Assembly: GCA_949751835.1 (NCBI GenBank)
Contig: CATKHK010000011.1
Coordinates: forward strand, 581,490-645,489
Direction of reading: 5' to 3'
Origin: Blepharisma japonicum
Taxonomy: Eukaryota > Ciliophora > Heterotrichea > Heterotrichida > Blepharismidae
Length of the DNA stretch: 64,000 nt
The translations under genes were made by a program, and so were the position numbers. Each line of letters begins with the position of its first letter. The first letter of the stretch is position 1. A model generated the notes under the pieces. It was given only the letters and a program-made list of their open reading frames with translations. It had not been told where the DNA came from and did no database searches. This document shows, piece after piece, positions 5,124 through 52,780 of this stretch.

Positions 5124-5240
5124 TATATAAATAACTATTAATTGAAAATATTTTTACAGGATTGATATTTTTATCATTTGTAATGAATATTTAAAAATAG
5201 TCAGCCTCAAATATTATAAACCCTTAATATTAAGGATTAT

Positions 5241-18274: not shown

Positions 18275-21200
18275 TTAAAAATCTTTCGTTTTTATTTCAA
18301 GATCATTTTCATTTTCAATTTTTGAAACTTCATAAAAAGTTTCGTCTTGCTGCTTTTCATCACTATCTTGTGGACTACAATAGAGTTTGTCGACCCAATT
18401 TTCTGCATTTCTTCTTAGCACACCCATGAAGATTTGCCTCATATTTTGGCCAATAACTTCATTTACGTCAAAATCCACAGACTCAATTTGCGCAGATCGA
18501 TCTTTGACAATAGAAAATATCTTTTCTCCTCCTTTTACTATTACATGGCTATTTTTATTATGTTCAAATAAAGCATCGTCAAAGCCATCCATAACCTTTC
18601 TCGTAAACCTGCGTCTGAGAAATGGCACAACATTGCTTAGAAGCTGAAGTCCAGCTCCGAACATTTTTAGCACCCAATAATAAATAAAATAAGCGTTAAC
18701 AATGATAATGACAATAAAAAAGACAACTTTCGTTGCTTCGTCTAAAGCGTCTGTAAGATAATAAAGTCCACAATAAATTGTGATAGTGGCAACTAAAATT
18801 GATCTAATTTCCATACGGTTTAAAGCTCTGCCATCATATGGCTTATTTTGTGCTTGCATTATTAGACAAAGGAGCAGCAAGACCATGACGGTCAAAGCTT
18901 GGATATCTGTAGAAATGTTTTGCAGAAATACAGAGCAACAAACTATAAGGATTTTTCTATATAAAATCAAAAATTCCCAATAAAATGCATTGGTTTTGTA
19001 GCCATTGAAGAGAAATCCAAAACGCAGACGAATGCTCAGAGTATCGAGCTTTCTTCTATTTTTGAATAAAAAATAAAGGGTAATAGTAGGTATTCCAATG
19101 CCCCATACAATAATGGCTGGAATTGATACTGAAAAAATATAAAACATGTGATTGCTATCCCAGCATCTTATATCAAGATTATCCACAAGCCAAAATTCTC
19201 CAGGCTCAATTTCTCGACAGCTAAAAGAAGAAAACATTGATTTCACCAAATTTGGGTGGATTAAAAATAATAAAATAACTACTGTAGATATGAAATCATT
19301 GAAAAATGACTCAAAACTCTTTCGATATCATTTTATAAGTGTCCAGTATAAAAATGACCCACATCCTATCATAATAGGAATCAAACTCATTATCATCAGT
19401 TTTTTGAAATAAACTTTATTATTGTCTTTCCCAGTATCCAAAAAACAATCAAAAGAAAATATTTCATCACTTACAGATCCTGCATTAGTTTGTATAGAAA
19501 ACATGCTTAAGACGGTCTCAGGTCATGATAAATTAAAAGTAGTAATGAGGACTACAAGCTGCAAATAGTTCACAAAAATTTTTATGTAGACTGATTGAAG
19601 GGATTTTGGCTTGTAAGCAGAGTTTCGGGTCGTTCTTACCATAATAGCGCCAAGCAAAATGGCAGCTGCTATAACACCTACTATACGAAAAGAATTAGAT
19701 AATTCTCCTGGACACTTTCCACAAGCGTTTGCGCTTGTTCTCGAATATCCATTTTCACATGCTTGACACATATTTCCAGTATAGCCTTTTTCACAGAGGC
19801 CAGTTAATGATAAATTTGGTGGCGGAGGAGACCCTTTGCATGATGCTTCTCTTGGGCAAGCCCAAAAAGTACTTGACATATTGGAAGATCTTCAGAACCC
19901 TGGCAGAGGAACCATTGTCCAATTTCCATAGCATTTTGCTTGACTAGGACATTCTAAGCATTGAGTACTCGAGCCATTCAAGCTATAGCTTCCTTTCTCG
20001 CAGACTTGGCAGTTCAAGCCTATTGTAGCTTCTCCAACTACACATCTTCTTAGTGTAATATTTACATTTACGGCAGAAACATATGAAATTTGGCTGTTTT
20101 TTTGGTTATTTTCGTCTATACCTGTTGCAGGGATATTTATAGTAACATCAGAGCCAGGCTCAGCAGAAACTATAAAATTATCAAAAATATAAATGCCTTT
20201 TGAAGCAGTCACTCTAGTCGTTCCAGAAAGAATTACTGTAGAAGAATTTATGGCTAAAAGTTCAGCTGAGCTAGCATTGTCAGTAGCAACAATGTTTCCA
20301 TAATAATCAACTAGTGCTAATTTCACAGTTTGTGAAGACTCTTGGCCAGAAGCTAGATTTGATAATGAAAAAACAGTAGGATTAGAAGCAAAGTTTTCAT
20401 CATAACTGATTATTGATCCATTGTCGTTAAGTGCCATCAGTTTTACTGCAAAAGAGGCTACATTATTAGCATAAGCAGCAGAATTATTGGTAAAAGTGTT
20501 ACAAATTAAAACTGGAATAATGTCTTCCCAGTTAATGGCTCCTCCGTTATAAGTAGCAGAGTTTTCAATGAATTTATTGTATGAAATATTAAAACTGCAA
20601 GTGCTGAAATCTTGGCAAAGTATGTTTAATCCTCCGCCATTTCCAGAAATAGGAACAGAAGATGTTGGGGTTTCCGTAGTCGAAGCCATATTTCCCATAA
20701 AAGTTGATGATGTAACATTTAATTTTATGTTATTGCTATAAATGGCTCCTCCAAGCTCTGCAGAGTTATTTTTAAATGTAGAACCAGATACAATATAAGA
20801 TTGAGCTATTTCATTTCCACTTGTAGTTACAAGATATAATGCTCCTCCTGCAATTTCTGCTGAGTTCTCAATAAAATTGCATTTATCAATCTCCAGTTTA
20901 ATACACCCAGCGCACGTTAAAGCACCTCCAGTTTCTGAATTTCCATATAGAAAACTATTCCCATTCATATAAACGCTAGCCATTTTTTCCCCATAAATAG
21001 CTCCATTCTCATAGCTTTCAAACCAAGAATTTTCTATATTTAGTTCGCTCTCATAGCCTGTAATAACTCCTCCTACATCGCTACTGTATGATGAAAAAAA
21101 TTCGCTATTCGAAATATTCAATAAACTTCCTGAAAACGACCATATAACCCCTCCTCCACCAGAAAGTGCATAATTATGGCTAAAGTGACTGTCAATGATT

Positions 21201-24200
21201 ATAATACTGCTTGACGTAGAAAAAATAGCACCCCCTGAGCTGCTGCTTTTTCCATATTCAAATGAAGAGCTTTTTATTGTCGCAGTACTTTGAGTTGTCG
21301 CGTAAATAAAACTTCCCTGCTCACCATTTTGCAAATAAAAATCAGAGTTCATTATGGTAGCTGAGGAAAGAGTTAGCAAAATGCCTCCCGTGATCATTTT
21401 TGCTGTATTTTCAGCCACTGAAGAGGAATTTATACTTATTGATGAATCGAGCAATGCTATAGATCCTTCATTTTCAGCTTTATTTAAATTTATAGTAGCA
21501 TTATATAATTCTGATACTGGATTTGAAGCCCCTAGTAAATAAATAGCTGATCCTCTATTTTTGCAAGAATTTTTTTTAAAAATCGAATTTGAAATATAAA
21601 AAACTGAATTTTGCTCATTGTAAATTGCACCCCCAGAGTCTAGTGCGAAGTTTTCCTGAAAAACGCAAAAATCACATGTTAAATTAGAGGAAGTGCTGAT
21701 TGTTATAGATCCTCCATGAGTTAATGAATAATTTTCTTTAAAAATGGTATTTGTAAGACTTACTGAAGAAAACTCAGAAATTTTGATTCCGCTGGCAAAT
21801 TTTGATGTATTATTATAAAAGATAGATTCATTGTCTTCTAAATAATCGTAGTCTAAAGCAATAGCTGATCCTTCATTACTTGAAAATAAGCATGAATTAG
21901 TAAAAACATAGGAATAAGTGTTTGAATTCCCTGAGTAAATAGTTGCCATGCCTTTATTATACATAAATTGAGAGTCTTCTATATACAGCGTTCCTGTCAA
22001 TTGCGCGTAACCTCCAATTTCAATGTATATTGCTGCTCCAAGTTTTGCGGAATTATTTCTAAAGGAAGATTCTTTTATTTTAAAACTTCCACTTAGGAAA
22101 AATAATGCAAGAGCACCCGATGTCTTTGAATAGTTTTCCTTAAACAAACAGGACTCTATAAAAGAGCTTTTATCCATTACTGTATAAGAGCTAATATATA
22201 ATCCCGCTCCATACATAGCCGAATTTGAAGTAAATTCTGTATTTTTTACCTCTAAATACACAATGCTTGAAATCGCCGTATTTTCAACATAAATTCCTGC
22301 ACCATTAATTGCAGTGTTATTATAAAATAAGCATTTGTCTATGTAAATATAAGACATACTCGCACTCATTAGGTTAGCAAATACTCCTCCTCCATATGTA
22401 GGAGATAAGTTATACTCGAAAGTGTCATTATACAGCTTTAAAATTTTGCCAGCAAAGTAAATTCCACCTGAATACCCCAAATTTTTTGAAAAAATTGTGA
22501 AATTGACTTCTAGTGTTTGGTTGCTTCCAGATGCAGTGATTAAGCCATATCCCATTTGGGCATTATTTTCGTTATTCAGAAACTTGGAATTAGTAATTGT
22601 AGTTTGATTTCCATCATTGATGCATAAAATTGTGAGAGATTTTGTTGAACATCCATAGTTATAACTAAATGTGGCATTATCCAGGTTGACTCCTATGGAA
22701 TTCTCAAAGATTGAGGATGGTTGTGCCTGTGAGCAGTAATTTTTTGTAATCTCAGAGCTTTTAAATGCGAAATTCGTCAGATAAGAAAATAAAGAAAGAG
22801 AACTGCAGTACAACGGTGTGGCATCTAGCTTATTTTTCATATAAATACTTGGATCATTTATTCAATAGTTGACTAAAATAGTGTTTGCGCTGACATCTGA
22901 ATTAAAGTTTGCTGTATCACCGTTTGAATTAATTGTGAAGTTATTGAAAAATAGGTTTACCAGTCTATAGAATTCAAATATTCCATTGCCTCCATAATAA
23001 TTGCTATATATATAGGTAGACTCTCAATTAAATCATCTAGGATTTTGATGGGCAGTTACCCTGGCCCCATTAGATACCGTAACTGCTCCAGTGGCGCCGT
23101 ATAAATATTCTGTTTTCACTATGGTGTTGTTGATGAAAAACAAACTTCCATATTCAATCAAATTATTGCGGATTTCAAGCGCAGCTAAATTGTAATTTTG
23201 AAGTTCACATAGGTAATTAGCAGACAGAATTCCAAAATTAATTCCGTAATTGTTGTAAAATTTTGTTTCTGTAATAGTAACATGATTAATGGTATAATCA
23301 ATAATTTCATTGTATATATTAACTTCTTGACTTAATGCCAAATTACTAGCACTAATAAAAATCAGTCCATCCTCTACATAATTGTAAGAAAAGTCACAAT
23401 TTTCAATAAAAAGAGTTCTGAAAATTTCTAAATAAAGTAAACTTCCAGCACCGTCAGCAGCTGGATCTGATATAAAATTGTTTTTGAAATTTATATTGGT
23501 AAGATTTACACTTTTGATTCGCTTGGCTGCCAAGAATCCCATTAGTGTCAAGGAGCTGTCATACTCAAATCCATTATTCAACTTCTCTACATTTCCTATA
23601 TTATAATAAAAATTACCACATTCATAAGTGCTTGATCCACAATCTGCAAAAATTATGACACTAGAATTTTCAAAAGGTGCAGTCCTAATATTGCTAAAAT
23701 TCACGTTTTCGAGCTCAACATCTCCACCGTAACTGTAAATCAGCGAATTTTCTTCTAATCTTCAATTCGTAAAATTGACATTTTTCAGCAATAAACTACT
23801 ATTTTGAGGGATTTCAAACAAATTTCAGTCATGATTTTGTTCACATATTTTTGCATCTAAAAATTCTGTTGTTACTTTTCCTTTATCATCTTCATAACTC
23901 CCATCGAAAATCTGCGTAACATGAGGACAATAAGAGCACAAGTCGCTGGGTAAGCTGCATTTAGTGCTTTCTGATTTTCATTGAAAAGAATCAAAATTTA
24001 AATTGCTAATCGACATGTAAAGAGTATTTTTCAGGGTTATTGTTATTATATTTTGGTTCAGATAAGGCTTCAAAGTCGCAGTTGAGCCATCAATTGTTGT
24101 GATTGTAAGATTTTGACGAATAACTTGAATATTGTATGGCTTTAAGCTGCCTTCAGTGCCTATTTGAATAGAAGAAATTTCATTTACCTCAGTTAAATAA

Positions 24201-25666
24201 TGGATTCCTGGGGTAAGAAAAAGAATTGAGTATTTAGTCATTATTGATACCAATGCAAATGATAAGGATTTATATGGCCTTGTTATGGTTCCATCACCTG
24301 TTGAATTATCAGATGTATTCCAGTTCACATAATAAACAGCAGGATTTTCTAAGCTCGAGGTGTCTGTCTTAAGAACACAAATCCAAGTCTCATTCAAAAA
24401 GTGCAAAGGTTTGAACCCTGATGGGCATTCATTTAGACAATAGCCAAAGAGCTGGTAATTATTCAATATTGATGAATCACATTCATAGCAATCACCGATC
24501 TCAAAACCGTAACACTTCAAACACTTCGGATCAGCACACTTAGTTTCATTCTGAGGGGAACAATTGCATGAAGAATATCCACAGAATTCATTATTGCAAT
24601 TTTGGTCGCAAAAACCTGAATTAAACAAATTTTTCGTCTGGCATTTCGTTTCGGATTTACACTGCTTTAGGCTAGGGGCTTGTGAAAAATTAAGGCTCAT
24701 GAGCTGTAAACGCATATAAAATAAAGATAGATTTGTATTCTTGCATCTTTGGTTTGGTGTTGAGCCTATTTGGTCTCATAAACAGTCAGCAACCATGCAG
24801 CCTTCAGAACAGTGCCCATAATTATTGATATTGCATGTTGATGCACACTGACAGTCGCCTCCATCTCAATTACAATTAGCATTATTGCATTGAGGTTGGC
24901 ATGTTCCATCTCCAATATATCCACTTTTGCATCCATTTGAGCATTCACAAGCATTGTTATCATAATTGCATTCGAAAATATTACAAATCTCATCGCATTC
25001 ATTATTATTAAGTAATATTGAGCTGCATCCAGGGCTGCAGTCACAATCACTCAAATCTCATTTGCATTCTTCATTATAGCATTCCTTATTGCATACAGTA
25101 TTATTTAGCATATAAGTGTGGCATCCAGGAGCACATGTAAAATTTTCACAGTCTCCAAAATCATAGTTACAATTTGAAACATCACAAGCTGGGTCACATT
25201 TTCCATCTCCAAGAAGGCTTGATGTACAATTTTCGCTGCAATCTTGGCAAAGGCCAAGTCCACAATAGCAAGAAGCCGTATTACAAGCAGAATAGCAACT
25301 GGTTCCAAGCATTTTGTCATAACCTAAATAGAAGTTACAATTAGAAGAGCATATTCCACAATCGCCCAAATCATAGGCACAGGTCCAGCTGTTACACTCT
25401 TGGTTGCAATATCCATTGCCGAGCTTATTACTTGGGCATTGATTCCTATAAATGCAGTCAAAGTAACAATCAGAATCGGTAATTTTCCCTGTTTTTGAGT
25501 CGTAATTGCAGTAAGGACTCATGCAATTTTGGTCACAGTGGCCATCACCTATCTATGTAAAAATTACAAAGGAATCTGGGCATAAATTTTTGTTGCAAGT
25601 AATCGTCAAAGAGAGGGTAAAGGGAAAAATCGAGAAAATGATAAGCAGCACGATGCCATATAACAT
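18275..25666 (-). CDS. Giant LNR / beta-helix / TRP-like membrane protein, copy 1
   Basis: The protein is 2458 aa with TGA=Trp and one 15-nt intron (25553-25567). Residues 1-20 are a signal peptide. About residues 34-300 hold some eight LNR (Lin-12/Notch)-type repeats, such as LGDGKCDPACDVSNCNYDFGDC-like units and one ending in CNWDGGDC. A CLKCYG/CYECD cysteine segment follows. From about residue 440 (YYVNWN...GDGT..PYKSLS) to about 1730 is a right-handed beta-helix with dozens of GGAI/GGxIY and FxxN repeats, as in Pmp-type repeat proteins. A TNFR/ephrin-receptor-like Cys block lies at about 1865-1985 (GEATIGLNCQVCEKGSYSL). About nine membrane helices (about 1985-2330) carry RLRFGFLFNGYK and YWEFLILYRKIL, resembling TRP/Flc-like domains. 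A cytosolic tail (KVMDGFDDALFE, EKIFSIV) ends it. It is probably a plasma-membrane receptor or channel with a huge ectodomain. Function unknown. Confidence 0.93.
25553..25567 (-). other. 15-nt intron GTAATTTTTACATAG
   Basis: It lies between codons for ...CPDSF and IGDGHCD.... Removing it restores the LNR reading frame. Kept in, it would give a TAG. The three paralogs have an intron at exactly the same place. Confidence 0.92.
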
Positions 25667-25877
25667 TTTGCCAGAAAGATATTTAATAAAATTATTTAAT
25701 GACCTTGGGGAATTAATATAAGGTACTTGTGATTTATTTTGTTATAGCTTATCAACATAGAAATAAATAGTTATGAAATTTCCAGAAATTTAAAAAAAAG
25801 TTCTTGATAATTTAAAATTTTATCCAAGAAAGATATATTAATCTAAAAGCCTTTAGTTTTTTTTGTAAAATCAATTA
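25667..25877. promoter_or_regulatory. Short spacer between copies 1 and 2
   Basis: Only 211 bp separate the stop of copy 2 from the start of copy 1 on the same strand. Copy 2's 3' end and copy 1's promoter must both lie here. No specific element is recognised. Confidence 0.4.
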
Positions 25878-28800
25878 TTAATTTGTATCAGATTTTAACA
25901 TTTTTACACCCATTTCTGTTTTCTGATCAAGTCGGGAAATCTCATCATATGACGATGGATGCTCTATCTCGATATCTTCACTGTCAACAAATGAAGACAA
26001 TAATTTATTCTCTTCTGAGCCTTTATTGATTATACTCATAAATACTTGCTTCATATTTAGATTAAAAATTTCGGCGACATCCAAATTTTCAGATAACGAG
26101 TTTGGACTGTTTTTTACAATAGAGAAGATCTTTTCTCCTCCTTTTATCATTACATGCTTTTCAATGTTTTCTTCAAATAAAGCATCATCAAAACCATCCA
26201 TCACCTTTCTATGGAATCTATTTCTAAAAAATGGGATTTTTTCACTTAAATATTGAATCCCAGCTCCAAACATTTTCAAAACCCAGTAGTAAATAAAATA
26301 GGCATTCACCAGGACGATAGCTATAAAAAACACAACTTTTGTGGCTTCATTTAGAGCACCAGTCAGATAATAAAGTCCACAATAGATGGTAATTGTAGCA
26401 ACTAAAATAGATCTAATTTCCATTTGGTTTAGAATGCTTCCATCATAGGGCTGGTTTTGAGATTGTAATATTAAACAAAAAAGGAGCAATACCATTACAG
26501 TCAATGCTTGAATATCTGTAGAAATATTTTCCAAAAAAACAGAGCAGCACACTATAAGAATTTTTCTATATAAAATCAAGAACTCCCAATAATATTTTCT
26601 AGACTTATATCCATTGAAAAGAAATCCAAATCTCAGCCTTATGCTTAGTGCGTCCAAATGTCTTCTATTTTTCCATAAAAAGAATAAAGAAACCGTAGGG
26701 ATTCCAATTCCCCACACTATAATAGAAGGTATAGATACTGCAAAAATATAAAACAAATGATTATCATCCCAGCACCTTATTTCCAAATTATCGACTAGTC
26801 AAAATTCTCCAACATCAATTTCTCTACAACTAAACGAAGAAAACATCACTTTAACCAAATTTGGGTGTATTAAAAACAGCAAAATAACAATAGTCGACAC
26901 CAAATCATTTGAAAAGGTTTGAAAATTCCCTCTATACAGCATAATGCAAACCCAGAACAAAAATGACCCGCAGCCTATAGCAACAGGAATAATGCTCATA
27001 ATGATCAGTTTATTGAAATAGACTTGCTCCATTCCTTCGCCAGTATCTAAAAAACAGTCAAAAGAAAATACTTCATCGCTTACAGACCCTGCACTACTTT
27101 GAACTGAAAACAGCTCCAAAACTGTGTCTGGCCATTCCAAATTGAAGGTTGTAATGAGTATAACGAGCTGCAAATAGTTTACAAAAATCTTAATGTAAAC
27201 TGATTCGATTGATTTTGGCTTATATGCAGAATTTCGAGAAGTCCTGACCATAATTGCTCCAACAATAATCGCTGCGATAACTATGCCGATTACTCGGAAA
27301 GCGTTAGAAACTGGATCAGGGCATTTCCCACAAGTATTTGGATTAGTTCTTGAATATCCGGAATCGCAGGCTTGGCACATATTTCCATGGTAGCCTGTCT
27401 CACAATGGCCTGTCAAAGAAAAATGCTCTTTGCTTGATCCTTCACATGCAACTTTATTTGGACAAGCCCAAAAAGTGCTTGACATATTAGAAGATCTTCA
27501 ATATCCTTGCTGCGGAACCATTGTGTAATTTCCATAACACTTTGCTCCACTAGGGCAATCTATGCATGCAGTATTCTCACCATCTAAACTGTATGTTCCT
27601 TTGTCACAGACTTGGCAATTATTAGAAACAGTGGCTTCTCCAATAGTGCATTTCCTTAGCGAAATATTTACCTTTACAGTTGAAATAAAAGTAATTTGGC
27701 TGCTTTCTGTCTTTGTTGAGTCTATTCCTGTAGAATACACCTCTATGTCAACATCAGTGCCAGGTATTGCCCAGACGATAAAATTATCAAAAACATACAC
27801 GCCTTTTACTGCTGTCACTTTTATGGTCCCAGAAAAGGTTGTTGTTGAAGAGTTTGTAGCCAAAAGTTCAGCTGAGCTTGAGCTGTCTGTAGTAACAATA
27901 TTATTATAATAGTCCACTAGTGCAATCATTAAGGTCTTTGAAGAAGTCTGTCCTGGGGCTAAATTTGATAAGGAAGTCGCTAAAGGAGCACTTTCAAGTC
28001 TTCTTTGGTATCCTATTAGTTCTCCATTCTCATCAAGGGCAACAATTTTGACTGCATAAGAGCCAATATCATTAGCATAAGTTGCAGTGTTATTGGCAAA
28101 TATATTGCCTGACAGCACCGGCATGATATCTTCAAAGTTGAGAGCTCCACCATCATAAGTAGCAAAGTTTTCAACAAAAGTATTATTTGAGAAATAAAAG
28201 ACACAGGTCTTGAAATCTTCACAGACAGTATTTATTGCGCCTCCGTTTCCATCTACAGGTGTAGTAGCTGTAATAGGGTCATCGGTGGTTGCAGAGTTCC
28301 CTGAAAAAGTGGAAAAAGAAATATTCAGCTTGACGTTATTGCTGTATATCGAGCCTCCAATTTCTCCTGAGTTGTTTTGAAATGTTGAGTTTGAGATTAT
28401 ATAAGAATCAGCAATTTCATTATCATTTGTAGTTCATATATACAAAGCACCTCCCAAGCGTTTTGCCTTATTCTGAATAAATTCAGAGTCATAAATTCCC
28501 AGATCTACACAGCCAGTGCATGATAGGGCGCCTCCGCTTGGCGAGTATCCATTTAAAAAGCGGCTTCCTTTGATTCAAATGTGTGTCATTTTTTCTCCGC
28601 TTATGGCGCCTAAAGAGTAGGTATCAAAGTAGGAGTTTTCAACATTCAAGTCACTTTCATAACCTACTATGACGCCTCCCAAATCATTGCTGTTCGAATT
28701 AATGAATTTGCTATCTGTGATGTTTAATATGCTTCCTGAATATGATAAAATAGAACCCCCTCCCCCAGAAGAGGCAAAATTGCCACTAAATGTGCAGCTG

Positions 28801-31800
28801 CTTATTATAACTTCACTCGCAGTAGAAAAAATTGCGCCTCCAGAGCTGCTGCTGTTACCATTAATAAAGGAGCAGCCTTTAATAATCGCTGTACTTTGCG
28901 TGGTCGCATATAAAAAACTCCCTTGCGTACTCTTTTGTGAATAAAAAGTGCTCTTGGTGATTGTAGCAGTTGAAAGAGTAAGCAAAATTCCTCCTGTCAC
29001 CATTTTCGCCGAGTTTTCATGAATTATGGACAATGTGATGTTTATTGCAGAGTCAAGCAAGGTTACAGAACCTTCATTATAGGCATAATTTGAAGCAATC
29101 GATACATTATATAACTGAGATATAGGACTTGGAGATCCCAATAAATAAATCGCTGACCCTTTATTGGCAGACATGTTTTCTTCGAAAACAGAATGGGATA
29201 CATTGAAAAAGGAATCCTGCTCATTATAAATTGCTCCTCCAGAGTCTCCTGCAAAGTTCTTTTGGAAGTTGCAATAATTGCAAGTTAAGTTAGATATCCC
29301 AGCAATGCTTATTGACCCTCCATGGGATGTTGAATTATTTTCTTCAAATATTGTGGCTGTAAGACTGGCTGATGCGTTATCATCCATTCTAAGCCCTCCG
29401 CCTACCATTCCTGAATTGTTTTTTATTATAGAGCCGTTATCAATCCATGAGTCGTAGTCCAAAAATACAGCAGATCCTACATTATTAAGAAAAGAGCACG
29501 AACGTGTTACCACAAAAGAAAAAATGTCAGCATTTGATGCATATAAAACCGCGCCTCCACTGTTATAAACAAACTCTGTGTTTTCTATATAAAATATTCC
29601 TGGGTATTGTAAATCAGGGCCGATTTCTAAATAAATTGCTGACCCAAGCCTTGCGATATTATTATAAAAATAAGAGTTTAAGATCTTCAAAGTGCCTTTT
29701 GAAAACAGAGCTGCGATAGCTCCTGATATTTTAGCTGTGTTTTCTTTAAATGTGCAATTATAGAAGAAAGAGTCTGCTTCTATGGAAACAGAGTCCTCCA
29801 AGTATAATACAGATCCATATTCTCCATTGTTTGACTCAAAAGTTGTGTTCTTTATTGCCAAATATATGGTGTTTGACGAGATTCCTTCATTTTCCATATA
29901 AACTGCTCCACCATTCTCTGAAGTGCTTTTGTAAAATGTGCAGGAGTCCACATACACAGACAGAATCCCAGAGCTTAATTGGCTAATATATAAGCCTGCC
30001 CCATGAGTAGGAGAGCCATTATACTCAAATGTATCATTATATAGCTTAACAGTGCTTCCAACGAAATAAATCCCTCCTTCTGATGCGTAATTTTTAGAAA
30101 AAAGCGTAGAATTGACTTCTAGGAACTGAGTGCTGCCTTTGGCATAAATTAACCCATACCCAGTATCAGCATAATTTGTATTATTCAGAAAAAAAGAATT
30201 TATTATGGTAGTCTGATTCCCATTATTAGTGTACAGCACTGTCGGGAGAGTACCTGACCAGCCATAGTTCGAATTAAATGTTGTGTTTGTAAAATTGACA
30301 ACATTAGAGCTGCCAAAGCTTATGGTAGGGTTTGACTCTGAGCAGTAATTATTTGTGATTTGAGAGTCCTTCATAGTGATATTTGTGACTGTGGAAAAAA
30401 CAGATAAATATTCGCAGGTCAATACATTGGTCGTTATCTCATTTTTCATATACATGTCTGGACTATTAATCCAAGAGCTAAATACAATAGAATTGACATT
30501 TATACCTGTGTTTTCCTTTTCTGTGTCTCCATTTGAATCTATTGTGACACCGTTTATAAAGATGTTGAAAATCTTGGCAAAATAAAAGATTCCATTGCTT
30601 CCTGAGTAATTATTTTTGATTGTGCCTGAATATCAGTTGAACCAGCGAGGATTTTGGTGAGCTGTAATCCTAAAGCCATTATCTGTAGTCACAGTTCCTG
30701 TTGTCCCATAGATATATTCGGTTTTTACTACTGTGTTGTTTAATACAAAAAAACTGCCTGACTCAACTACGTTATTTTGTATGTCAAGGGAATCTATATG
30801 GTAATTTTGCAATTCAGGTACATAATAGGCTGCAATGATCCCTATATTTATCCCATAGTTATTGTAAAATTTTGATGACTTTATTGTTACATGATCTATA
30901 GTATAGTCGATAATTTCATTATTGTCTACAGTTTGCTCCAAGGCCAAATTAGTCGCGAGGATAAATATAATACCATTCTGCACGTAATTGTACAAAAACT
31001 CACAATTTTCAATAAGCAGTGTCCTGAAGATTTCAAAATAAAGGACACTTCCTGCGTCATCAGCTTCAGGATCTGATATAAAATTGTTTTTGAAAATTAC
31101 ATTGGTGATGCTCACACTTTTGGCTTTAATAACTCTTAAAAATCCCATTAAAATCAGAGAACTGTCATACTCAAACCCATTATTTAGTTTCTCTACATTT
31201 CCTTTATTATAATTAAAATTTCCACATTCATAAGTTGCTGATCCACAATCAGCAAAAATAATTACACTAGAGTTTTCAAATGGAGCAGTTCTTATATTAC
31301 TGAAATCAACATTTTCTAGGTCAAGATTTCCTCCATCACTGGAAATTAATGAGCTTTCTTCTAACCTCCAATTTGTAAAATTTACGTTTTTCAGCAATAA
31401 GCTGCAGTTTCCAGGAATTTCAAATAAATCCCAGCCATGATTTTCTGCACATTCGTCAGAGTCTAGATACTCGGTTATAGCTTCCCCTCGATCATTTTGA
31501 TAAGTCCCATCAAAAATTTGTGTAACATGAGGGCAATAAGAACAATAATCACTGGGAGTATTGCATTTATTTTTTTCACTCTCCCAGTAGTAAGCATCAA
31601 AGTTTATATTAGTGAATGACATATAAACAGTATTTTCAAGAGTTATCGTAATTGTGTCTTTGTTTGGGTAAGGCTTTATTGTTGGGATTGAGCTATCGGC
31701 TGAAGTTATTGTCAGATTTTGGCGAATAGCTTGATAATTATAAGGTCTTGAGGAATCCGCGATGGTTACATAAACTTCTGAATCTTTATCCACTTCAGTC

Positions 31801-37600: not shown

Positions 37601-40600
37601 GCTGGAGTATGCTAAGATTGCTCCACCTCCTCCTGTGGTCGCATTAGATCTGGTAAAAGTGCAATTGTCCATTGTTATTGTGCTGGAAATTGAAAAAATA
37701 GCCCCAGCTGAGCTTGAGCTGACTCCATCCGTGAAGGTAGAGTTGTACATGTCCACCTCGCTCTGGGTTGTGGCATAAATGAAGCTTCCCTGGTCCCCAC
37801 TTTGGCTATAAAACCTTGAATTCGAAATTGTTGCATCAGAAAGCGTCAAAAGTATTCCAGGTGTTATTGAAGTAGCTGTATTTTTGTACACAGTAGATGT
37901 GTCAATGGTGATAGAAGAGTCAAGAAGGGCAATTGAAGCCTGATTAGAAGAGCTGTTTTCATGGATAGTTGAGTTCTTAAGAAGAGAACTTGTAGAAGAG
38001 GAGCCCAGCATATAAATGGCTGCTCCCTTATCAGTGCATTTGTTTTGGTATATGAAAGAATTGGTAATGTTAAAGTAAGATCTTTGCTCATTAAAGATAG
38101 CCCCTCCTGAACCTCCTGCTGAATTTTCTTCAAATGTACAGTTTAGACAGTAAAATTTAGATGCTGAGCCTGATGAAACGGCCCCACCATCCTGAGTTGC
38201 AGTGTTAGATGAAAAATATGTGTTGGTGCATTTAACAATTGACGCGTCAAGCAATTTTATTCCTCCAGACGCTTTCCCCGCATTATTTTTGATCACTGAA
38301 TCTAAGTCTGTTCAATAATCGTAGTCCATTCAAACTGGTATGCCAGTATTTGATGAGAATGTGCATGAATCAGTCTCAATGTGGGAGTAGACATCTGAAT
38401 TTGTCATATAAAGCACAGCAGCTCCTGAGTTTGAAGTAAATTTAGTGGTCTTCATAAAGGTCTTGCAAGTTATAAGATCGCTTTCAGATGCAGTTTCCAA
38501 ATATATTCCTGATGCTACTCTTCCGATATTTGAGGTAAACTCGCAATTTTCTATATTAAAAATCCCAGAAGCAAATAGAAATGAAAGGGTGCCTGAACTT
38601 GTAGCATTGTTTTTAGAAAAAGTAGTAGATTTAATTGTAGAAGTTTTGTAATCATAAATCTTTAGAGAACTGCCCAAATAAATTGCAGAGCCATAACTAC
38701 CTGTATTCTCAGTGAAACTACAAGCTTCCACATTGAATATAATTGAATTATATACAGCTCCTGAATTGTCAAAGTACATTCCGCCTCCATAATTAGAGCC
38801 CAAGTTATTAGAAAAAGTGCATGAGACAGCTGTGACTGTTATTCTTCCTGTCACAATCTGCTGGATGCAAACTCCTCCACCAATTTTGTAGGCAGTATTA
38901 TTTTTAAAGGTATTATCGTACATATAAAGATATACCCCTGCAAAGAAGATTCCACCTCCACTTGTGCCTATATTAGAGTCAAAAGTAGTTTCGTTAATTG
39001 TCAGGTTTAGCGCACTTCCGTCTGCACAGACAGCCCCGTACCCTGTCTCTGCTAGGTTTTCATTAGTCTTTATGGTGCAGCTCATTATATGAGTTTCGTT
39101 GCCTCCACTTATATACAGCGCAGCTGGGTATTTTGTTGACTTTCCCACATTCCCACTGATGGTCACATCCTTGAAAACATTGATGTCTGAGTTTGATACA
39201 AGCACATATGGCGTTGAAGAGTATGCGAGACTACCTGCTATTTTCGATGAAACTATCGTAAAATTGGTCATAGTGCTCATTGAAGCCAATGAAGTGAAAT
39301 CTAGAAATGCAGGGGAAGCTGAAAGAGTCTTTAAATACATATTGCTGTTGTCTTTTCAAGGCTGGAAGACCAAGGTATTTACAGTGCTGTTTGTTGCCCC
39401 ATTTGAGGTTATTTGTATGTCATCCATATATAGATTCACAAGCTTGGTGAAATCCCAAAGTCCAGAGCCGCCAGAATTGTTGTTATCAAAAGTGAGGGTT
39501 TTCCAGTAAAATGTTCGCTGCCTTTGGAAAGCATTGACTTTCCCATTTGAAGTGCTTACAGCAGCTGTTTGCCCATATATATATCTATCTTGCACAACAC
39601 TATTCGAAATATAAATTAGTGGGCCTTTTTCTACACCATTATACTTAATCTCAACGTTATTTCAGTTAATATTTTGCAGCTCAGTTTGGTATACAGCTGC
39701 AAAAAGCCCATAATTAACACCATAATTATACATAAATGTTGAGCCTGTAATGGTTACATGGTCCATCAAATAATCAGTTATTTCTTTCTTAGAGTTGACA
39801 TCAGAGTTCAGCTGCAAATTCGAAGTTTTTAAGTAAATTAAAGAAGAGTACATATAATTGTAGGAGAAAGTGCAAGAGTCAATAGTAAGTGACTTAAATA
39901 TTTCTAGGTAAATTAAAGAGTCATCTACAGAATTAGCTGCAGAATAGACTGCGTTGTTTTCGAAATTGATACTTTTAAAAGAAATGGTTTGGCTTCGTGG
40001 AGATCTAAGAAAGCCTTTCAAAGTTAAGGATGATGAGTACTCAAAACCGTTATTAATTCTTGTGACACTGCCAGTGTTATAAGTAAAATTGCCACAGCCA
40101 TAGGAATAAGAGCTTGCACTTTGCACACAGTCTTTGAAGAGAATTACAGCAGATCCAGATGCAGGATTATTACGAATATTGTCAAAGTAAGTGCTAGTGA
40201 AATCTAAGTTTCCTCCGTTATTTTGAATGATTGAATTGAGTTCCATTCTTCAGTTGTTAAATTTGACAGTGTTCAGGATTAAAGTAGTTCCTGAAGTTAC
40301 TTCAATCAAATTTATATTGTGATATTTTTGACACTGCGACGAGTCTGCAAAATCGGTTATTACGTTTCCCTGATCATCTTTATATGAACCGTCATACTGT
40401 TTAGTAACTGTAGGACAATACGAACAGGAGCCTCCTAAGCAGCTGTTTTTCCCATGAGCCCACTGGTCTCCGTCGAAAATTACATTGGCTATCGTAAGAG
40501 ACTGAGTGTTTTGAGTTGTAATTGTCAAAAGATTTCAGTCCACTTTGGGCTTGAGATACACAATGGCATTGTTTTCAGTCATTATGATGAGACTCTTCCT

Positions 40601-42175
40601 GACAGTTTGCGAGTTATAAGGTTTTGCAGTGTCTGGGGCAACAACTGACATAGGGTTTGTTGTGTTCAGTTGAGTCAAATAATGAACTCCGTCCCCATCA
40701 TTATTCAAATAGACAACTGCGTAAGCACTATTGATGGCAGTTAGCGCCAAGGCTAAAGACTCAAAAGGATTCGATTGAGTTCCGTCTCCTCCTAGTGCAT
40801 CTGTTGAGCCCAGTGTTGTCACATAGTAATGCTTAGGGTTTGCATAGCTTGAGGTGTCAGCTGAGGGGAGACACAAGGGATAATTAAGTGAAGAAATATA
40901 ATTAACACTATAGCCAACAGGGCAAGTTTGCAAGCAATAGCCGTAAAACTGATAAGAGTTTGTAAAATCGCACTTGTAGCATTGCCCTTGGTTTGTCCCG
41001 TAGCACTTCAGGCACTTTGTATCTGCACAATGATTCATGCTTTCAGGACTGCAGGATGCCCAAGAGTAGGCACAGTTTTTATTGTCACAGTCTTGCTGAG
41101 TGCATGTGTCATAGCCTGCTAATAGCATAGTGCCACTACACTTTCCATCGCTTGTACAATCAGATAATTTCCTCACAGTTGTTAAATCGTTATTAATAAG
41201 CTGCGCATGCATATGGAAGAGCTGGTTAGTTGCCTCTGTGCAATGCTTTGAAGAATCTGAGCTAAACTGATCATATAAGCAGTCTCCAACTAAACAATTT
41301 TCATTGCATTGCCCATATATATCGTTTGTGCAGGAAGAAGTGCATCGGCAGTCCTTGGCGTCCCATTGGCAATTCGAATTATAGCATTTAGAATCACAGT
41401 TTCCGTTACCTATCATGTTGTTAAAGCAACCACTCGCACAGTCTCCACATTTACCATTATCATAACTACAGTCAGAGTTATCACATTCTGAATCACAAAC
41501 ACTATTAGTTAGCTTATCTGAATTGCAACCTGGTGAGCAGTCGCAATCTTTGTTATCTCAATTGCAGGCTGAATTATAGCACTCACTATTGCAGACTCCA
41601 TCATTGATCATGTAGGAATAGCAGCCAGTAGAACAAACTTGTGTTGAGCAATCTCCGAAGTCGTAATTGCAAGATGCAGTGTTACATACACTATCGCATG
41701 TGCCATCTCCGAGCTTCGAAGAAGTGCATCCAGTGCTGCATTCCGCACAATAACTTTGACCATAATAGCATGTATCTGTATTACAATTATCATAGCAGTA
41801 GCTTCCAAGCATATAGCTATAGCCTACTTATGACTTACAGTATTGGCCACAGTAGCCGCAGTCTCCTAAATCATACCCACACTCAGCTATATTGCAAGAA
41901 CTGTCACAGTAGCCATCTCCAAGGTCGCTGGGATCGCATCCATTATAATAAACGCAACTTTCATAGCAGTCTGATGTTGAGAAATCGTAATCTCCTGATG
42001 AAGTTGCAGAATCTCAATTACAAAAGGAATACATGCAGCCTGTGTCGCAATATCCATCTCCTTTCTAAATCTAAATTACATATGAACTTGGACACCAGTT
42101 CTCGTTGCACGTTATACTCTTTGAGCTTGAACTAGAAAAAGAAAAGCAGGTAAGTATCAGCAGAAGTTGTAACAT
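34700..42175 (-). CDS. Giant LNR / beta-helix / TRP-like membrane protein, copy 3
   Basis: The protein is 2481 aa with TGA=Trp and two 15-nt introns (42065-42079 and 41824-41838). It has a signal peptide with a Ser run, LNR-type repeats (KLGDGTCDSVCNTASCNYDFGDC-like, MIGNGNCDSKC), CLKCYGTNQGQCYKCD, the beta-helix entry (YYVTTLGSTDALGGDGT), a long Pmp-like repeat region, GEATVGVNCEVCSSGFYSL, about nine membrane helices with RLKFGFLFNGYK and YYWEFIILYRKIL, and a longer cytosolic tail with a Ser/acidic end. The second intron restores a cysteine (TGC) across the splice and shortens the third LNR-like unit relative to paralogs. It is more diverged than copies 1 and 2, and its longest TGA-free frame (38296-34700) spans the repeat region, the Cys block and the membrane part. 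Confidence 0.93.
41824..41838 (-). other. Second 15-nt intron GTAAGTCATAAGTAG, unique to copy 3
   Basis: It splits the codon for a Cys (T|GC) after CGYCGQY. Splicing joins it to YSYMLGSYCYDNC, matching the LNR pattern of paralogs. The paralogs have coding sequence, not an intron, here. Confidence 0.82.
42065..42079 (-). other. First 15-nt intron GTAATTTAGATTTAG
   Basis: It lies at the conserved position after CPSSY and before KGDGYCD. It carries an internal TAG and a terminal TAG in the reading frame. Confidence 0.92.
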
Positions 42176-45346: not shown

Positions 45347-45406
45347 TTTATTACATGCTTAATACTTAGAATATATTTATCAATTTTCTCAAGCCCATAA
45401 GCAACT

Positions 45407-48400
45407 CTATTGAGTTAAATGAGCATAAGAAACCTCTTCACTATCCTCTGCCACTGTGGAGCAATTTAATTTCTTTCTTTCTATGTCATTTTTCAGCACT
45501 CTCTTAAAAATCTCTTTCATATCAAGGCTAACCACTTCGCAGCCATCAGTACTGATTGGCTCAATTGGCATCCCATCTTCAGTGGGGACCACAGAGAACA
45601 TCTTTTTGCCCCATCTTCTGGTCACATATTTAGGCTTGCGCTTTTCAAATAGCTCATCGTCAAATCCATCAGAACTCTGAGCCCATTTGTGCTTAAGCCA
45701 AGGAATTAGAGTAACGGCCTTTCGGAATCCTACTGCAAACATTTTGAAAAGTCAATAATAAAGGAAGTATAAATTTGCGAAAACTATTATTGCAAAAAGC
45801 ACAATTTTCGTGCTCTCATCCAATACGCCCGTTAAATAATAAAGCCCACAATAAATGGTTATTGAAGCAACCAGGACCGCTCTAAATTCCATTTTATTTA
45901 AAACTGCACCAATGTATGGCTTGTTTTCATTTTGAATGTACAAGCAGACCAGTAGGAGAATCATGACAGTTAAAGCTTGGATGTCTGGAGAGATATTTCC
46001 TAAAAAGATAGAGATAGTGCAAATTAGGATTTTTCTATATAAAATCACGAATTCCCAATAGTAGCACTTTCTTCTATAACCGTTAAATAGAAAACCAAAC
46101 CTCAGTCTGGCACTGATTGAGTCCAGCTTTTTTCTCATCCTCCATATGAAAAATAGAGAAACAGCAGGAATGCCAATTCCCCAAGCAATAATAGAAGGTA
46201 TGACCACAGAAAAGACATAAAACATGTGCTCATCGTCCCAGCATCTTATATCTAAGTTATTGACCAGCCAATATTCTCCTGATTCAATTTGCTTGCAGGA
46301 GAGCGCACCAAACATCATTTTGATGAGATTTGGATGAATCATGAAAAAGAGGATGACATATGTCGAAATTATGTCGTTTTTAAATGACGGCATAGAATGC
46401 TTCAGCATAGCATAGATTCCTCAATAGAAAATTGTGCCTAAAATCATAATAATAGGGACAACACTCATTATTACCACTTTATTGAAATAAATTTGAGCCT
46501 GGCCCTGTCCTGAATCTAAAAAGCAGTCGAAAGAAAACACTTGGTAGCTTACAGATCCTGCGTTGGCTTGAACCCTTAATAATTCAGCAACGCTATCAGG
46601 CCATGCAAGATCGAAAGTGGACGTGAGCATGATGATTTGTAAATAATTTACAAAAATCTTTATGTAGACTGACTCCATAGATTTAGGCTTGTAAGCACTG
46701 CTTCGAGTTGTGCTTACCATAATAGCACAAATTATAATTGCAGCTACCATGATCCCAACAATTCGAAGAGAATTTAGGAGTGGATCTGGACAAACCGCAC
46801 AAGTATTTGTAGAGGTCCTTGAATATCCGATGGAGCAAGCCTGGCATAAGTTTCCTTCATAGCCTTCACAGCAAAGCCCGGAATAGGAAATATTGGGATA
46901 TGGGGGCGAGCCTAGGCAAGAGGATGGGTTGGGGCACTTCCAGAAGTTATCAGTCAGGTTGTTTGATCTTCAATATCCAGCCTTAGGTGCAATCAAGAAA
47001 CCTCCATAACAATTCATCTTATCCTCACATGATTTACAGTGATCTCTTGTTGGATCTAGGCTGTATGATCCATTGGCACATATTTGGCAGCTTTTGGCAA
47101 GAGTGATTTCTCCAATTTCACAATCACGCAAAATCACATTCACACTAATGATAGGAACTTCTGTAATATTCATAGAAGCCTTTTTAATTTTTGTTTCATC
47201 GATCCCATCAGTCGAAACTAGAATAGAAACATTTGTACCAGGCTTTGCGGAAACTACAAAGGAGTCAAAATAGTAAAGGCCTTGCACTGCTGTAACTTTT
47301 GTAACACCAGAAAGTGTGGTCGAAGTTGTATCTTTCGCTGATAATTCAGCTACGCTCACACTGTCAGTTGATACAATATGCCCGTATGGATCTATTAATG
47401 CAAGCAATATAGGGCTTGTCGTCACTTGCCCAGGGGCAATACTTTCTAATTCAAGAGTTTCTGAAGCATCTTCTAGGTCACGGTTGCTACATTCTAAGCT
47501 GCCATTTTTAGATAAAGCCACCATTTTAACTGCAAAAGATGAAATATCATCTCCATATCTAGCACTATTATCAATAAAAATATTGCAATCAGCAATAGGC
47601 ATGATATCATCTCAATTTATAGCTCCTCCGTTGCATGATGCAATATTTTTGCAAAAAGAGTTCTTTGATATATCAAACACACAATCCTTGAAATCTTTAC
47701 ATGCAATGTTAATAGCTCCTCCGCATCCTTGACTTGGAATAATTCCTGTGTTGGATTCTAGCATGGCAGTAGAGTTATTGTTCATGAAATCCGAAAACGA
47801 AACATTTAAACTGATATTGTCTGTATAAATTGCTCCACCCATAGAAGCAATATTATTGTGGAAAGTAGATCTGACGATGGTATAGGGATTTCCTATTGAA
47901 ACATCAGCTGATGTGGTCAAATAAATAGCACCTCCATGATAAGCGAAGTTATTTGTAAATAAACTCTCAGTAATATCTACTAAACCACATTGAGAGCAAA
48001 ATAATGCCCCGCCATAGGTCGCATTCCCATTAGCAAAAGTAGAGCTAGAGATAGCCACTGTATACATTTTCGAAGCTGATATTGCTCCACTGTAGAAAGT
48101 GTCGAAATGAGAATCAGAAATCATTAGATCGCTCTCATAGCATCATATAACCCCTCCTAGATCTGAACTAAAGGAATTTTTAAAAACTGTATTTTCTATT
48201 ACTAGAGAGCTACTTGAATAAGACATTATAGCCCCACCACCGCCGTTTTTAGCATGACTTTCTTCAAAATAACTACTTTCAATAGTAATGCTACTAGAAA
48301 TAGAATATATGGCTCCTGCTGAGCTATAGCTTATACCATTAACAAAGGAGCTGCTTGAAATTTCGACAATACTTTGAGTTGTAGCATACAAAAAGCTACC

Positions 48401-51400
48401 TTCTTGTCCAATATGATTCATAAATTCACTACTTGTTATTGTTGCATTAGAAAGTGTTAAAAGAATTCCGGGAGTGATTGTGGCTGCTTGATTATTATTG
48501 AACACAGAACCGCTTATAATTATATCAGCATCAAGCAGCGCAATTGTTGCTTGATTTTTTGAACTATTTTCATTGAAAATAGAAGATTTTACTATTGATC
48601 TAGGGGAAGAAGCTCCCAATAAATAAATAGCTGAGCCTTTTACTGAGCATTGGTTGTTTTTAAAGCTTGAGAACGAAATGTTTATCATTGAGTTTTGTTC
48701 GTTATATATTGCACCTCCAGATCCACTGGCCTTATTCTTTAGGAATGTGCATTCGTTGCACATAAACACTGATTTTGTTCCTGCAGATATTGCACCACCG
48801 TTATTATATGAATGATTTTCGATGAAAACTGTATTTGTACAATTTACTAAAGAATTATCTACCATTTTTACTCCTCCACTTAGAATCCCAGTGTTATTAA
48901 CCAGCATTGAATCTTCATCAGTCCAGTGGTCGTAGTCCAAAATGAAAACAGTTGCGTTATTGTTTGAAAACAAGCAATTTTTGGTATAAATATATGAAAA
49001 TACATCAGAGTTAGCCAAATTGATGACCGAAATGCCATGAGAAGAATTAAATGTTGAGGATGCTATATATAGCATAGATGGATGAGCTGTAGAATTTTCA
49101 CCATGCTCTGCAAATATTGAAGCGCCTAGCCTACCCACATTTTCATTGAAAGTTACTTGGTAAACTTGAAGATAGCCAGATTTATAGAGCACAGCGAGTG
49201 CTCCTGATCCTAATGCAGTATTTGAGTCAAAATTACAGCTGCTTATGGTTGAGCTGTTGACCAATCGTATTGAGCCTGCCATATATATTGCAGAGCCATG
49301 ATTTGCTGAGTTCTTGGTGAAATTCGACTGGTCAATGTCAATTGAAAATAAGCTTGATGAGCTTCCTGAATTTTCCATGAAAAGTGCTCCACCATTTCCT
49401 CTAATGTCCAAGTTAGCAGAATTATTGTAAAATGTGCAGTTCCTGATCCATGATTTTGCAAAATTCAGAGTTGTTTGCCTGATATAAATAGATCCTCCAT
49501 CTGTTGGTGAGTAATTTGACTCAAATCTTGAGCTGTCTGCAATAAGATATCATCCACTAAACATAATTGACCCTCCCATAGGAGAATAATTTGATCTAAA
49601 ATCACAGCTCCTAAAACTCAAGCTCAAAAGACTACCGCCGCCATAAACTGTCCCATAGCCTGAGCTCTCACTATTTGTGTTATTTATAAAAGCTACGTTA
49701 GAAATCACTGCACTATCCACTTCATTTATTAACAAAACTGTTGGATTGTATATCGATTTTCCAGTGTTTGTAATAAAAGCTGAATCTTGAATGGTGAGCT
49801 TGATTGAGTTTATAAAATTCCATACTGGAGTTGATGCACCACAATAATTATTAGTGATTACTGAGTATTCAATCGATGGAGAGTACACACCTTCTCATGT
49901 TGCAAGAGAAGTACAATTAAAACTGGTTGCTTCAACCTTATCTTTAATATAAAGTGTTTTATCAGTAATCCAGAAATTCATTAGAATTTGATTGAGATTG
50001 CCCATTGTGCTTGAGTCTCCACCGTTTGAATCCATCTCTAAATCGCAGAATCTCATGTTTACTAGTTGGTATAAATAAAATGCTCCGTTCAAAAAGTAGT
50101 TGTTGCTAAAAGTGATATTTTTTCAATCAAAATTCCTTTGGCTTTGGGTTGCAATAACTCTTTTAGCAAATGTTTGGACTATTGCAGTTGTTTCTGACAA
50201 ATAAGAATTTTTGAAAACGTTGTTCTTTATATACACTAAATATCCTGAAGAAGCTCCATTATTCTCAAAGATCAGTTCTTCGAAATAAATATTTTGCAGT
50301 TCAGCTGTGAAATATGCTGAAATTATTCCTGCAGATACCCCGAAATTATTTGTAAAGTTACAATAAGAAATTTCGATATGGTTTATCAAGTAGTCAATGA
50401 CTTGACTTTGCTCGTTTACTTCTGTTGATAGCACCAATTTTACAGGAAATAAAAATACCAGCCCATTGCTTGCGTAGTTGTATTTAAAAACACAGTCTCT
50501 AATGCTAATCTCTCGATAAATTTCTGCATAAATAAGAGAGGCGATATTAAAGTTAGCTGAATAAACAGCGTTATTTTTAAACTCCACATGCGTAAAATTT
50601 ATGCTTCTAACCTTAAACGCTGTGAAAAAGCCTCTGAAATCAAGAGAAGCTGAAAATTCATAGCCATTGTTAAGTCTCGTCACAGCACCTTCCTCATAAT
50701 AAAAATCTCCACAGTTGTAAGAAGTGTCACTTCTGCAGTTCAGAAACACAATCACTGCAGAATTATTCAGCGGTGCAACTTGTATATTATCAAAATCGAC
50801 TCCAGATAAGTAAACACTACCTCCTGTACTTTGAATCAGTGAGTTTTCTTGAAGTCTCCAGTTAAGAAACTGGACATTTGAGAGCATCAAAGTTGTGTCG
50901 TCTGCCACTTCAAAGAGATTTCAATATCAGTTTTCCTTGCAATAAGTTTGGTTTGTATAATTGATTATCCCAACATTTCGGTCATCAATATAAGTTGAGT
51001 CGTATTTTTCAGTTACTGAAGGACAATATGTGCAAGATTCATTCAGGCATTGATTTTCCCCATGAATTCAATAGTTTCCGTCAAAAATGACGTTACTTAT
51101 GCGAAGCAGTTCTGTATGGCTTAGAGTTATTGTTAAAATGGGTTCATCAACTTTCGGCTTCAAATAGACTATTTCGTTATTGTTTTGAGTTGTTATTATG
51201 AGGCTTTTCCTTTGGTTATAAGAATTATCTGCCTTAGTAGTGTCAGATACTGTTAAAGCAATTGGATATTTTGGGTTTAATTGTCCAAGATAATGAACTC
51301 CATCGTTCAGCAAATAAACAATTGAATATTCAGTGCTTATAGATGCTAAGGCTAAGGCTAAGGACTGAAAGGGTGATTCTTTTGTCCCAAGCCCTCCCAA

Positions 51401-52780
51401 AGTATCGTTGGTTTGTATAGAAGTCACATAATAAATAGCTGGATGACTTGTAGTTGAGTTATCAGCTGAAGGCAAGCAAAGTTGATATACTCCTGCTATA
51501 TTTTTAGTAGAATATCCAGCAGGGCATGATTCGAGACAATACCCAAAAAATTGAGTGATATTTCTTTTCGAAAAATCACATTCAAAGCAATCTCCCTGGT
51601 TTTCTCCATAACATTTCTTGCAGTTTGGGTCAAAGCATTGAATATGTTCCTGGTCTGGACATTCGCATCAAGAATATATGCAATTTATGTCATTACAATC
51701 CATATAGCACTCTTGTTCTCGTAATAAATTTTCTGAGCTATAAGGGCATAGACCTTTGCATGTATCTATGCTTTGAACCGTATATAAGTCTTTTTTTAGC
51801 AATTGCAGGTGCATATAAAATAGAATGGTATTTGTATCAGAGCATATTCGAGCTGAATCATTGCTAAATTGATCATAAAAGCAGCTTCCTACCATGCATT
51901 TTTCACTGCAAGTTCCATACATGGACATATCGCAAGAAGCCGCACATCTGCAGTCAGTCATATCATAGTTGCATGCTTCAACATCACAAGCGGAGTCGCA
52001 TATTCCATTTCCTATCATATCATCGTAGCAACCACTAGCACAACTCCCGCATCTATAATTATCAAAATCGCACTGGGTGTTGTTGCAGGCTTTATCGCAA
52101 ACATCGTTGCCTTTTAGGGTTTTATTGCATCCAGGAGCACAATCACAGTCATCAGCATCTCAGTTGCATGCACTATTATAGCAGTCTTCTTGGCAAGTTC
52201 CATCATCAATATATCATGTATAGCATCCTAACGAGCATTCCTCTGAAGGGCAGTCTCCAAAGTCATAGTTGCAGATTCCTGTGTTGCAAGCAGAATCGCA
52301 TTTTCCGTTTCCTAGCAAGCTGTTTGAACAGCCTGGACTGCACTCCATGCAGATGCTTAGGTCATAATAGCATGAAGTAGTGTTGCATTTCTGATAACAC
52401 ATCGATCCAATCATATAGTCAAAGCCTAAATATAGGTTACAGCCAGGCGAGCAATATCCGCAATCACCTAAGTCATATCCGCATTCAGGAATATTGCAGC
52501 ATTCATCGCACTTACCATTTCCGAGCACAGCTTCAGCACATCCGTTATTTATGCAGTCGTAATAGCAATCTGAGTATCAGAATGAAGACTGATCTCGTAC
52601 GGTATAATTTGAACTTGAATCATAATTGCAATAAGAAGTCATGCAGCTTGTATCGCAGTGCCTGTCCCCTCTCTATGTAAAAATCACTCATGAACTTTGA
52701 CATCATTTTTGGTTACACGATAACGTGTCTTGATTGTCTGCTGAAGAGAGATTAATCAAAGAAAATAGCAAAATCAGCAT
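45407..52780 (-). CDS. Giant LNR / beta-helix / TRP-like membrane protein, copy 4
   Basis: The protein is 2452 aa with TGA=Trp and one 15-nt intron (52673-52687). It has a signal peptide (MLILLFSLINLSSA), LNR-type repeats (VLGNGKCDECCNIPECGYDLGDC-like, LLGNGKCDSAC, MIGNGICDSAC), CKKCYGENQGDCFECD, the beta-helix entry (YYVTSIQTNDTLGGLGT), a long GGAI/FxxN repeat region, GEITLAKSCQICANGSYSL, membrane helices with RLRFGFLFNGYR and YYWEFVILYRKIL, and a short tail with DGFDDELFEK and MFSVVPT. It uses more in-frame TGA codons than the other copies; its C-terminal half alone is joined by TGA at KAGY-W-RSNN, GTIFY-W-GIY and FLYY-W-LF. It is clearly intact, with no TAA/TAG or frameshift, despite the highest divergence. 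Confidence 0.92.
52673..52687 (-). other. 15-nt intron GTGATTTTTACATAG
   Basis: It lies at the conserved position after CQSSW and before RGDRHCD. Nearly identical to the copy-1 intron (one base difference), although the genes are much diverged. Confidence 0.88.

Follow-up and report, generated by a model that had tools for sequence, protein, structure and literature searches.

LNR-tipped beta-helix membrane proteins of Blepharisma japonicum: a genome-wide family of candidate surface receptors

What is the role of four giant genes that lie in tandem on the minus strand of a 64,000-nucleotide stretch of Blepharisma japonicum DNA (the window; positions 581,490 to 645,489 of contig CATKHK010000011.1, with all coordinates of the array given in the window's own numbering)? 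An earlier note, made from the sequence of the window, had seen in these genes, here A to D, a locally expanding family of possible receptors and the best candidate for an undescribed system. Computational analysis showed that the proteins carry N-terminal LNRs and a long beta-helix rod, followed by a Cys collar and a base of about nine transmembrane (TM) helices, both conserved, and by a variable tail, and that the family extends far beyond the array described in the earlier note, with at least 73 loci matching the membrane domain of A. We propose, with a probability of about 0.5, that this is a large, genome-wide set of LNR-tipped cell-surface receptors for contact or the environment, akin to the CRMPs and to the proteins of the mating-type recognition complex (MTRC). 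By analogy of layout the proteins most likely belong to an already known type of alveolate contact receptor, in which their LNR tip and beta-helix length would be new.

Architecture of the four array genes

Three genetic codes were compared. Reading TGA as Trp opens four minus-strand open reading frames (ORFs) of 2425, 2427, 2375 and 2421 aa in A to D, respectively; the standard code and table 6 were rejected, as their longest stop-to-stop frames are 1203 and 1314 aa. Adding a signal-peptide exon and two introns of 15 nt to each gene gave full models of A (18275..25666, 2453 aa; introns 25553-25567 and 25324-25338), B (25878..33260, 2450 aa; introns 33162-33176 and 32933-32947), C (34700..42175, 2481 aa; introns 42065-42079 and 41824-41838) and D (45407..52780, 2447 aa; introns 52673-52687 and 52426-52440). 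All four genes are intact and on the minus strand, consistent with the claim of four intact giant genes that combine the domains described below. The lengths first given for them, 2452-2481 aa, hold for C but are slightly off for A, B and D because the second intron, which contains a TAA in C, is in frame and stop-free in these three genes and was kept as coding. Passages of the Blepharisma stoltei genome paper report UGA as Trp, mostly 15-16 bp introns, CCCTAACA telomeres, 66% AT and a size of 41 Mbp (PMC9942806).

The putative signal-peptide exon of A (25568..25666), assigned from the sequence without a predictor, encodes the hydrophobic N-terminus MLYGIVLLIIFSIFPFTLSL and ends at the first intron. 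It is followed by the LNR block (24728..25552, borders set by eye), which holds the second intron and matches PF00066 in seven stretches (E 8e-28). The Notch-type repeats were recovered with the same profile in the three other genes as well, at E 6e-24 in B, 3e-10 in C (where the ORF lacks its first part) and 2.5e-14 in D. Against the four full proteins Pfam returned, at E <=1, nothing beyond LNR, Chlam_PMP and one DUF6140 (E 0.18).

The LNR block is succeeded by a predicted right-handed parallel beta-helix (20453..24340 in A, ORF residues ~405-1700). The structure model of A has a mean predicted local distance difference test score (pLDDT) of 79 over 1191 residues of the beta-helix, in agreement with the more than 1000 residues originally proposed. 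In B (28389..31961), C (37259..40849) and D (47870..51454) the borders follow the rows of the alignment behind the model, which is itself of A. By our own count from the strand list of the model, 24 rungs occupy 628 residues, ~27 residues each. Beta-helices rise by 0.48 nm per rung, and at this value the whole rod would comprise some 40-48 rungs and measure about 20 nm. Foldseek with the whole beta-helix gave low TM-scores and three matches at E <=0.001, while VIA-align of the Foldseek matches, which include autotransporters such as pertactin, was clear over parts of the beta-helix. The Pmp-like character of the repeats fared unevenly: the POMP repeat TIGR01376 scores 33.8 bits in A against a cut-off of 15 (NCBIfam, with A the protein scanned at full length), but Pfam Chlam_PMP is below its cut-off in all four genes.

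Between the beta-helix and the Cys block, strands with a block pLDDT of 48-76 in an otherwise poor model suggest a tentative Ig-like beta-sandwich (20066..20452 in A). The Cys block itself (19688..20065 in A) has 13 cysteines that are invariant across 32 family members, all ahead of the first hydrophobic peak. At E <=0.1 it matches Ephrin_rec_like in 30, DUF7630 in 27 and EGF_laminin in 10 of these members, and in the Protein Data Bank it matches the Cys region of Ephrin receptor A2 (E 0.018). In the six members with scores, Ephrin_rec_like and DUF7630 are under the curated cut-offs, including DUF7630 in C (8.5e-5). Thus the conserved block described earlier as TNFR-like is present, but any Ephrin, EGF or TNFR name for it is weak. 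Conserved columns in the last ~500 ectodomain residues (n = 71) include 20 G, 11 F, 7 N, 3 D and 2 K, and no E, H or R; these columns look structural, and an enzyme in this part of the ectodomain is therefore disfavoured. Cys block, membrane base and tail together span 25881..27668 in B, 34703..36499 in C and 45410..47188 in D.

A genome-wide family and its history

The genome comprises 45.19 Mb in 224 contigs. The 73 matches to the membrane domain of A, scored out of 110 candidates, all have E <1e-75, and a divergent member used as query, with 90 of its 96 candidates scored, returned the same 73 places plus nine weaker pieces. The matched stretch is without TAA or TAG in 72 of the 73 loci. 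Sixty loci fall into 14 tandem clusters, one of them the window array, and 12 of these clusters are unidirectional throughout. At 62 or more loci a same-strand LNR match lies 3-6.5 kb upstream, a lower bound as 150 of 501 candidates were scored, and none of the 73 has one on the opposite strand; of the 11 loci at which no LNR was detected, three are truncated upstream by the end of their contig. At ~7.4 kb per gene the family would, by arithmetic, take up ~1.2% of the genome.

The view that the family is expanding locally is not fully borne out. The ORFs of A to D are 46-64% identical in pairwise comparison and, judged by sequence, represent old lineages, while the youngest pairs lie outside the window in clusters such as C85, C60, C93 and C131. 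A tree built from 32 bases joins A and B as sister sequences and places C with the C85 cluster; D has a long branch, the position of which is unsupported (0.395). Both 15-nt introns recur in the full-length relatives L041-L043; the same pair was not seen in L044 and L045.

Of 435 pairs, drawn from 30 of the 73 loci, the 14 closest were assessed for selection at the level of domains, with the ectodomain represented by its last ~500 residues, the LNR tips lying outside this part. Overall omega (the ratio of nonsynonymous to synonymous substitution rates) is 0.13-0.19, with 0.06-0.14 in the TM part and 0.12-0.24 in the ectodomain; the tail, at 0.12-0.51, is usually the least constrained. Positive selection was not seen in these pairs, and the low values point to a functional family under constraint and disfavour antigenic variation. 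That the proteins form a variable surface coat, in the manner of immobilisation antigens, is accordingly very improbable: this is a large tandem multigene surface family with decayed pieces elsewhere in the genome, as such a coat might be, but the tested part of the ectodomain is under purifying selection, the multi-TM base is conserved and contig ends are not clearly enriched. A subtelomeric location was not supported: 15 of 41 loci lie within 50 kb of a contig end against 12.4 expected, a count on contigs of known length above 150 kb that leaves out 32 of the 73 loci. Telomere repeats (CCCTAACA) occur close to the ends of contigs, among them the left end of the contig that carries the window, and the window reaches the right end of that contig.

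Membrane-domain pieces with several TAA or TAG codons were found at C164:27498-28544, C148:22921-24159 and C24:423573-424097. They are probably decayed copies and, as such, indicate birth-and-death evolution. In L015 (C85:86116-90792), one of the 30 loci that were read, the frame breaks within the beta-helix or Ig-like stretch, ~205 codons before the Cys block, and reading continues in another frame; the locus is a pseudogene of recent origin or else reflects an error in the assembly. Of 140 LNR matches, 23 are not upstream of any of the 73 bases. These matches, on C41 (280-283 kb), C5 (340-343 kb), C1 (290 kb), C3, C13, C24, C109 and C132, mark further LNR-containing proteins, some of them encoded in long open frames, as with one of 807 aa on C41. 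A search of viral contigs with the membrane alignment gave 120 pattern matches, none of which was confirmed.

Two further genes of the window encode other proteins. A DENN-domain gene (43163-45346, E 6.7e-26), which lies on the plus strand, separates C from D, and a 434-aa ORF at 3849-5153 (minus strand) encodes a tubulin-like protein that matches Tubulin at 5.1e-56, with a weaker match to a Misato segment.

The membrane base and a possible mechanism

The base (18638..19687 in A) was divided into about nine predicted TM helices from alignment-averaged hydropathy, in which 11 scripted peaks were merged or split by eye to nine. Mean identity among 29 loci (L015 left out) is 54% in the base and 21% in the cytoplasmic tail (18278..18637 in A), which sequence comparison marks as fast-evolving. 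This approximate number is in line with the roughly nine TRP/Flc-like helices proposed at the outset. A 116-aa fragment of A scores 30.6 bits (cut-off 28.5) against PF06011 TRP, the fungal Flc-type family. However, there was no match to PF06011 for the complete membrane parts of A to D at E <=10, for a 417-aa piece of A containing the fragment at E 1, or among the matches of any of 32 members at E 0.1. The score thus varies with the choice of segment. The membrane part of L037 reaches 23.8 bits, below the cut-off, and L010 scores 31.4 bits in the genome search and 25.3 alone by hmmscan. In that genome search two of 14 PF06011 matches are inside the LNR/beta-helix family, one above the cut-off, and alignment to the profile is limited to the C-terminal half of the base (profile positions ~276-411).

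PF06011 also identified a second multi-TM family with furin/EGF-like Cys-rich ectodomains, which occurs in tandem on C139, with five of the 14 matches. All four of its loci that were read, L008 and L009 (C139) and L006 and L007 (C51 and C15), are above the Pfam cut-off, and the group is possibly the MTA/MTB or CRMP-type set of B. japonicum. By hhalign the base of the LNR/beta-helix family aligns with those of L006-L009 at probability 83.9, E 7.8e-6 and score 52.4 over 144 columns, while 22 reversed or block-shuffled controls scored at most 24.4. The match over controls argues that the C-terminal half of the base, at least, shares ancestry with TRP-like bases, although by sequence this TRP likeness is weak. 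A related base thus carries other ectodomains elsewhere in the genome.

These findings bear on whether the proteins are mechanosensitive or ligand-gated ion channels, in which the TRP-like base would conduct and the beta-helix rod would serve as lever or tether. The fragment and L037 scores, the two family matches in the genome search and the homology of the base to PF06011-positive bases are consistent with a channel. Conversely, the alignment of the C-terminal part alone, together with the lack of matches for the complete membrane parts, the 417-aa piece and the 32 members, argues against one. Membership of PF06011 is in any case no proof of a channel, and the modelling of the membrane part did not yield a pore. 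We consider a channel possible but rather unlikely.

If the proteins are contact or environment receptors, as we favour, the N-terminus would be outside and the C-terminus inside, as suggested by the putative signal peptide, the odd helix count and the basic charge of inner loops ahead of helix 6. The rod would present the LNR tip at a distance from the cell, and binding or pulling at the tip could be relayed through the Cys collar and the membrane base to produce a signal through the tail. Separate paralogues may serve separate ligands or coupling partners. Such relays have been proposed for CRMPs, in exocytosis triggered by contact, and for the mating-type recognition proteins MTA, MTB and MRC. 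Several observations weigh against the receptor proposal. AlphaFold2 on the Ig-Cys-TM-tail region of four sequences gave a pLDDT of 38.6 and did not yield the membrane fold. Neither the tail nor the region of helices 7-8 is net basic, such that the topology rests on the earlier loops. No ectodomain pair had omega above 1, and ligand diversification is therefore not visible at the domain level. Lastly, the likeness to CRMPs and MRC2 is one of published layouts.

A bolder version, which we regard as speculative, is that over 70 genes give a single cell its repertoire for recognition, with interchangeable LNR-tipped rods on a common nine-helix transducing base. The LNRs would act as a Ca2+-dependent, force-sensitive switch, and the repertoire would discriminate prey, predators, kin and mates and start exocytosis or mating. 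If the receptor reading is right, the family would be the sensory front end that tells a large single-celled predator what it touches. Receptors of Blepharisma gamone 1 are still termed putative in the passages of a 2024 paper, and downstream signalling of CRMPs is likewise described as unresolved; tandem genes that combine a single conserved base with differing ectodomains provide a direct, testable entry.

Comparison with known systems

The ectodomain has counterparts in two well-known groups. Like chlamydial Pmp and autotransporter adhesins, the proteins have a beta-helix with GGAI/FxxN-type repeats, but they carry a multi-pass base instead of a barrel; no C-terminal autotransporter barrel was among the Pfam matches of the full proteins and membrane parts of A to D. 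LNR modules are shared with Notch, although those of A to D are at the far end of the rod and those of Notch next to the membrane. Neither the EGF array and other ectodomain modules of Notch nor its intracellular ankyrin repeats were among the Pfam hits (full proteins at E <=1, membrane part and tail at E <=10). The base resembles PF06011 TRP-like proteins in its C-terminal half, being joined to clear members over the hhalign columns, while whole-domain matches are absent or below the Pfam cut-off and the ectodomain is unrelated. The exact combination of LNRs, giant beta-helix and nine TM helices was not found in the literature, judged by titles, abstract starts and passages. Titles and abstract starts of work on the Blepharisma genome, gamone receptors, the ciliate layout and Notch likewise contain no description of the family. 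One candidate, the term 'notch' in PMC10449743, was rejected, as in the passage concerned it denotes pathway enrichment in Euplotes frameshift genes.

The earlier statement that no characterised protein is known with this exact layout has to be qualified, since the CRMPs of Apicomplexa and ciliates and Tetrahymena MRC2 come close in layout. The surface-receptor role it favoured also fits the evidence and the domain layout, but 'undescribed system' was too strong, since published passages describe CRMPs and the MTA, MTB, MRC1 and MRC2 proteins as joining Cys-rich or beta-helix ectodomains to 5-9 helices. In the Tetrahymena complex MRC2 has a pectin-lyase fold with 8 TM helices, and MTA, MTB and MRC1 have a GFR domain with 5, the components being 92-212 kDa according to passages of PMC10901506. 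MRC2 shares with the Blepharisma proteins a beta-helix and about eight TM helices in one large membrane protein, a likeness of layout with an approximate helix count; the components of the complex are smaller (the Blepharisma proteins are estimated at ~270 kDa) and LNRs are not mentioned in those passages. These layouts would fit a family of conjugation mating or self/non-self recognition molecules, an explanation we hold to be improbable as at least 73 copies look far beyond the need of a two-mating-type pheromone system and omega is low in the pairs tested.

Passages on CRMPs (PMC9815656, PMC9670195) describe an Ephrin/EGF-like core with 9 TM helices in Apicomplexa and 5 predicted in Tetrahymena, and domain lists that include an Ig-like fold and parallel beta-helix repeats. 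They also report that CRMPs are required for rhoptry discharge in Toxoplasma and that mucocyst discharge is impaired in Tetrahymena CRMP1/2 knockouts. In line with these accounts, the Blepharisma proteins are large putative surface proteins with a Cys-rich core directly before a multi-TM region and a cytoplasmic tail. Their LNR block and ~1300-residue beta-helix, however, do not appear in the passages on CRMPs, and the Pfam hits of A to D include no Kringle match; a CRMP model was likewise absent from the Pfam matches. As the comparison is by layout alone, we label the family CRMP/MTRC-like and do not file it under CRMPs. The knockout phenotypes and the similar core layout raise the idea that the proteins are functional equivalents of CRMPs that trigger discharge of extrusomes (pigment granules) upon contact. 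This reading seems to us a long shot, as Toxoplasma has two CRMPs, and it would leave the 73-locus expansion and the ~1950-residue ectodomains unexplained. The CRMP repertoire is, in the published passages, highly expanded in Paramecium and Chromera, for which the authors suggest environmental sensing. A shared kind of base may connect TRP-like proteins with the invasion receptors of Apicomplexa and the mating-type complexes of ciliates, a link suggested by published layouts together with one profile match here, in which neither CRMPs nor mating-type proteins are included.

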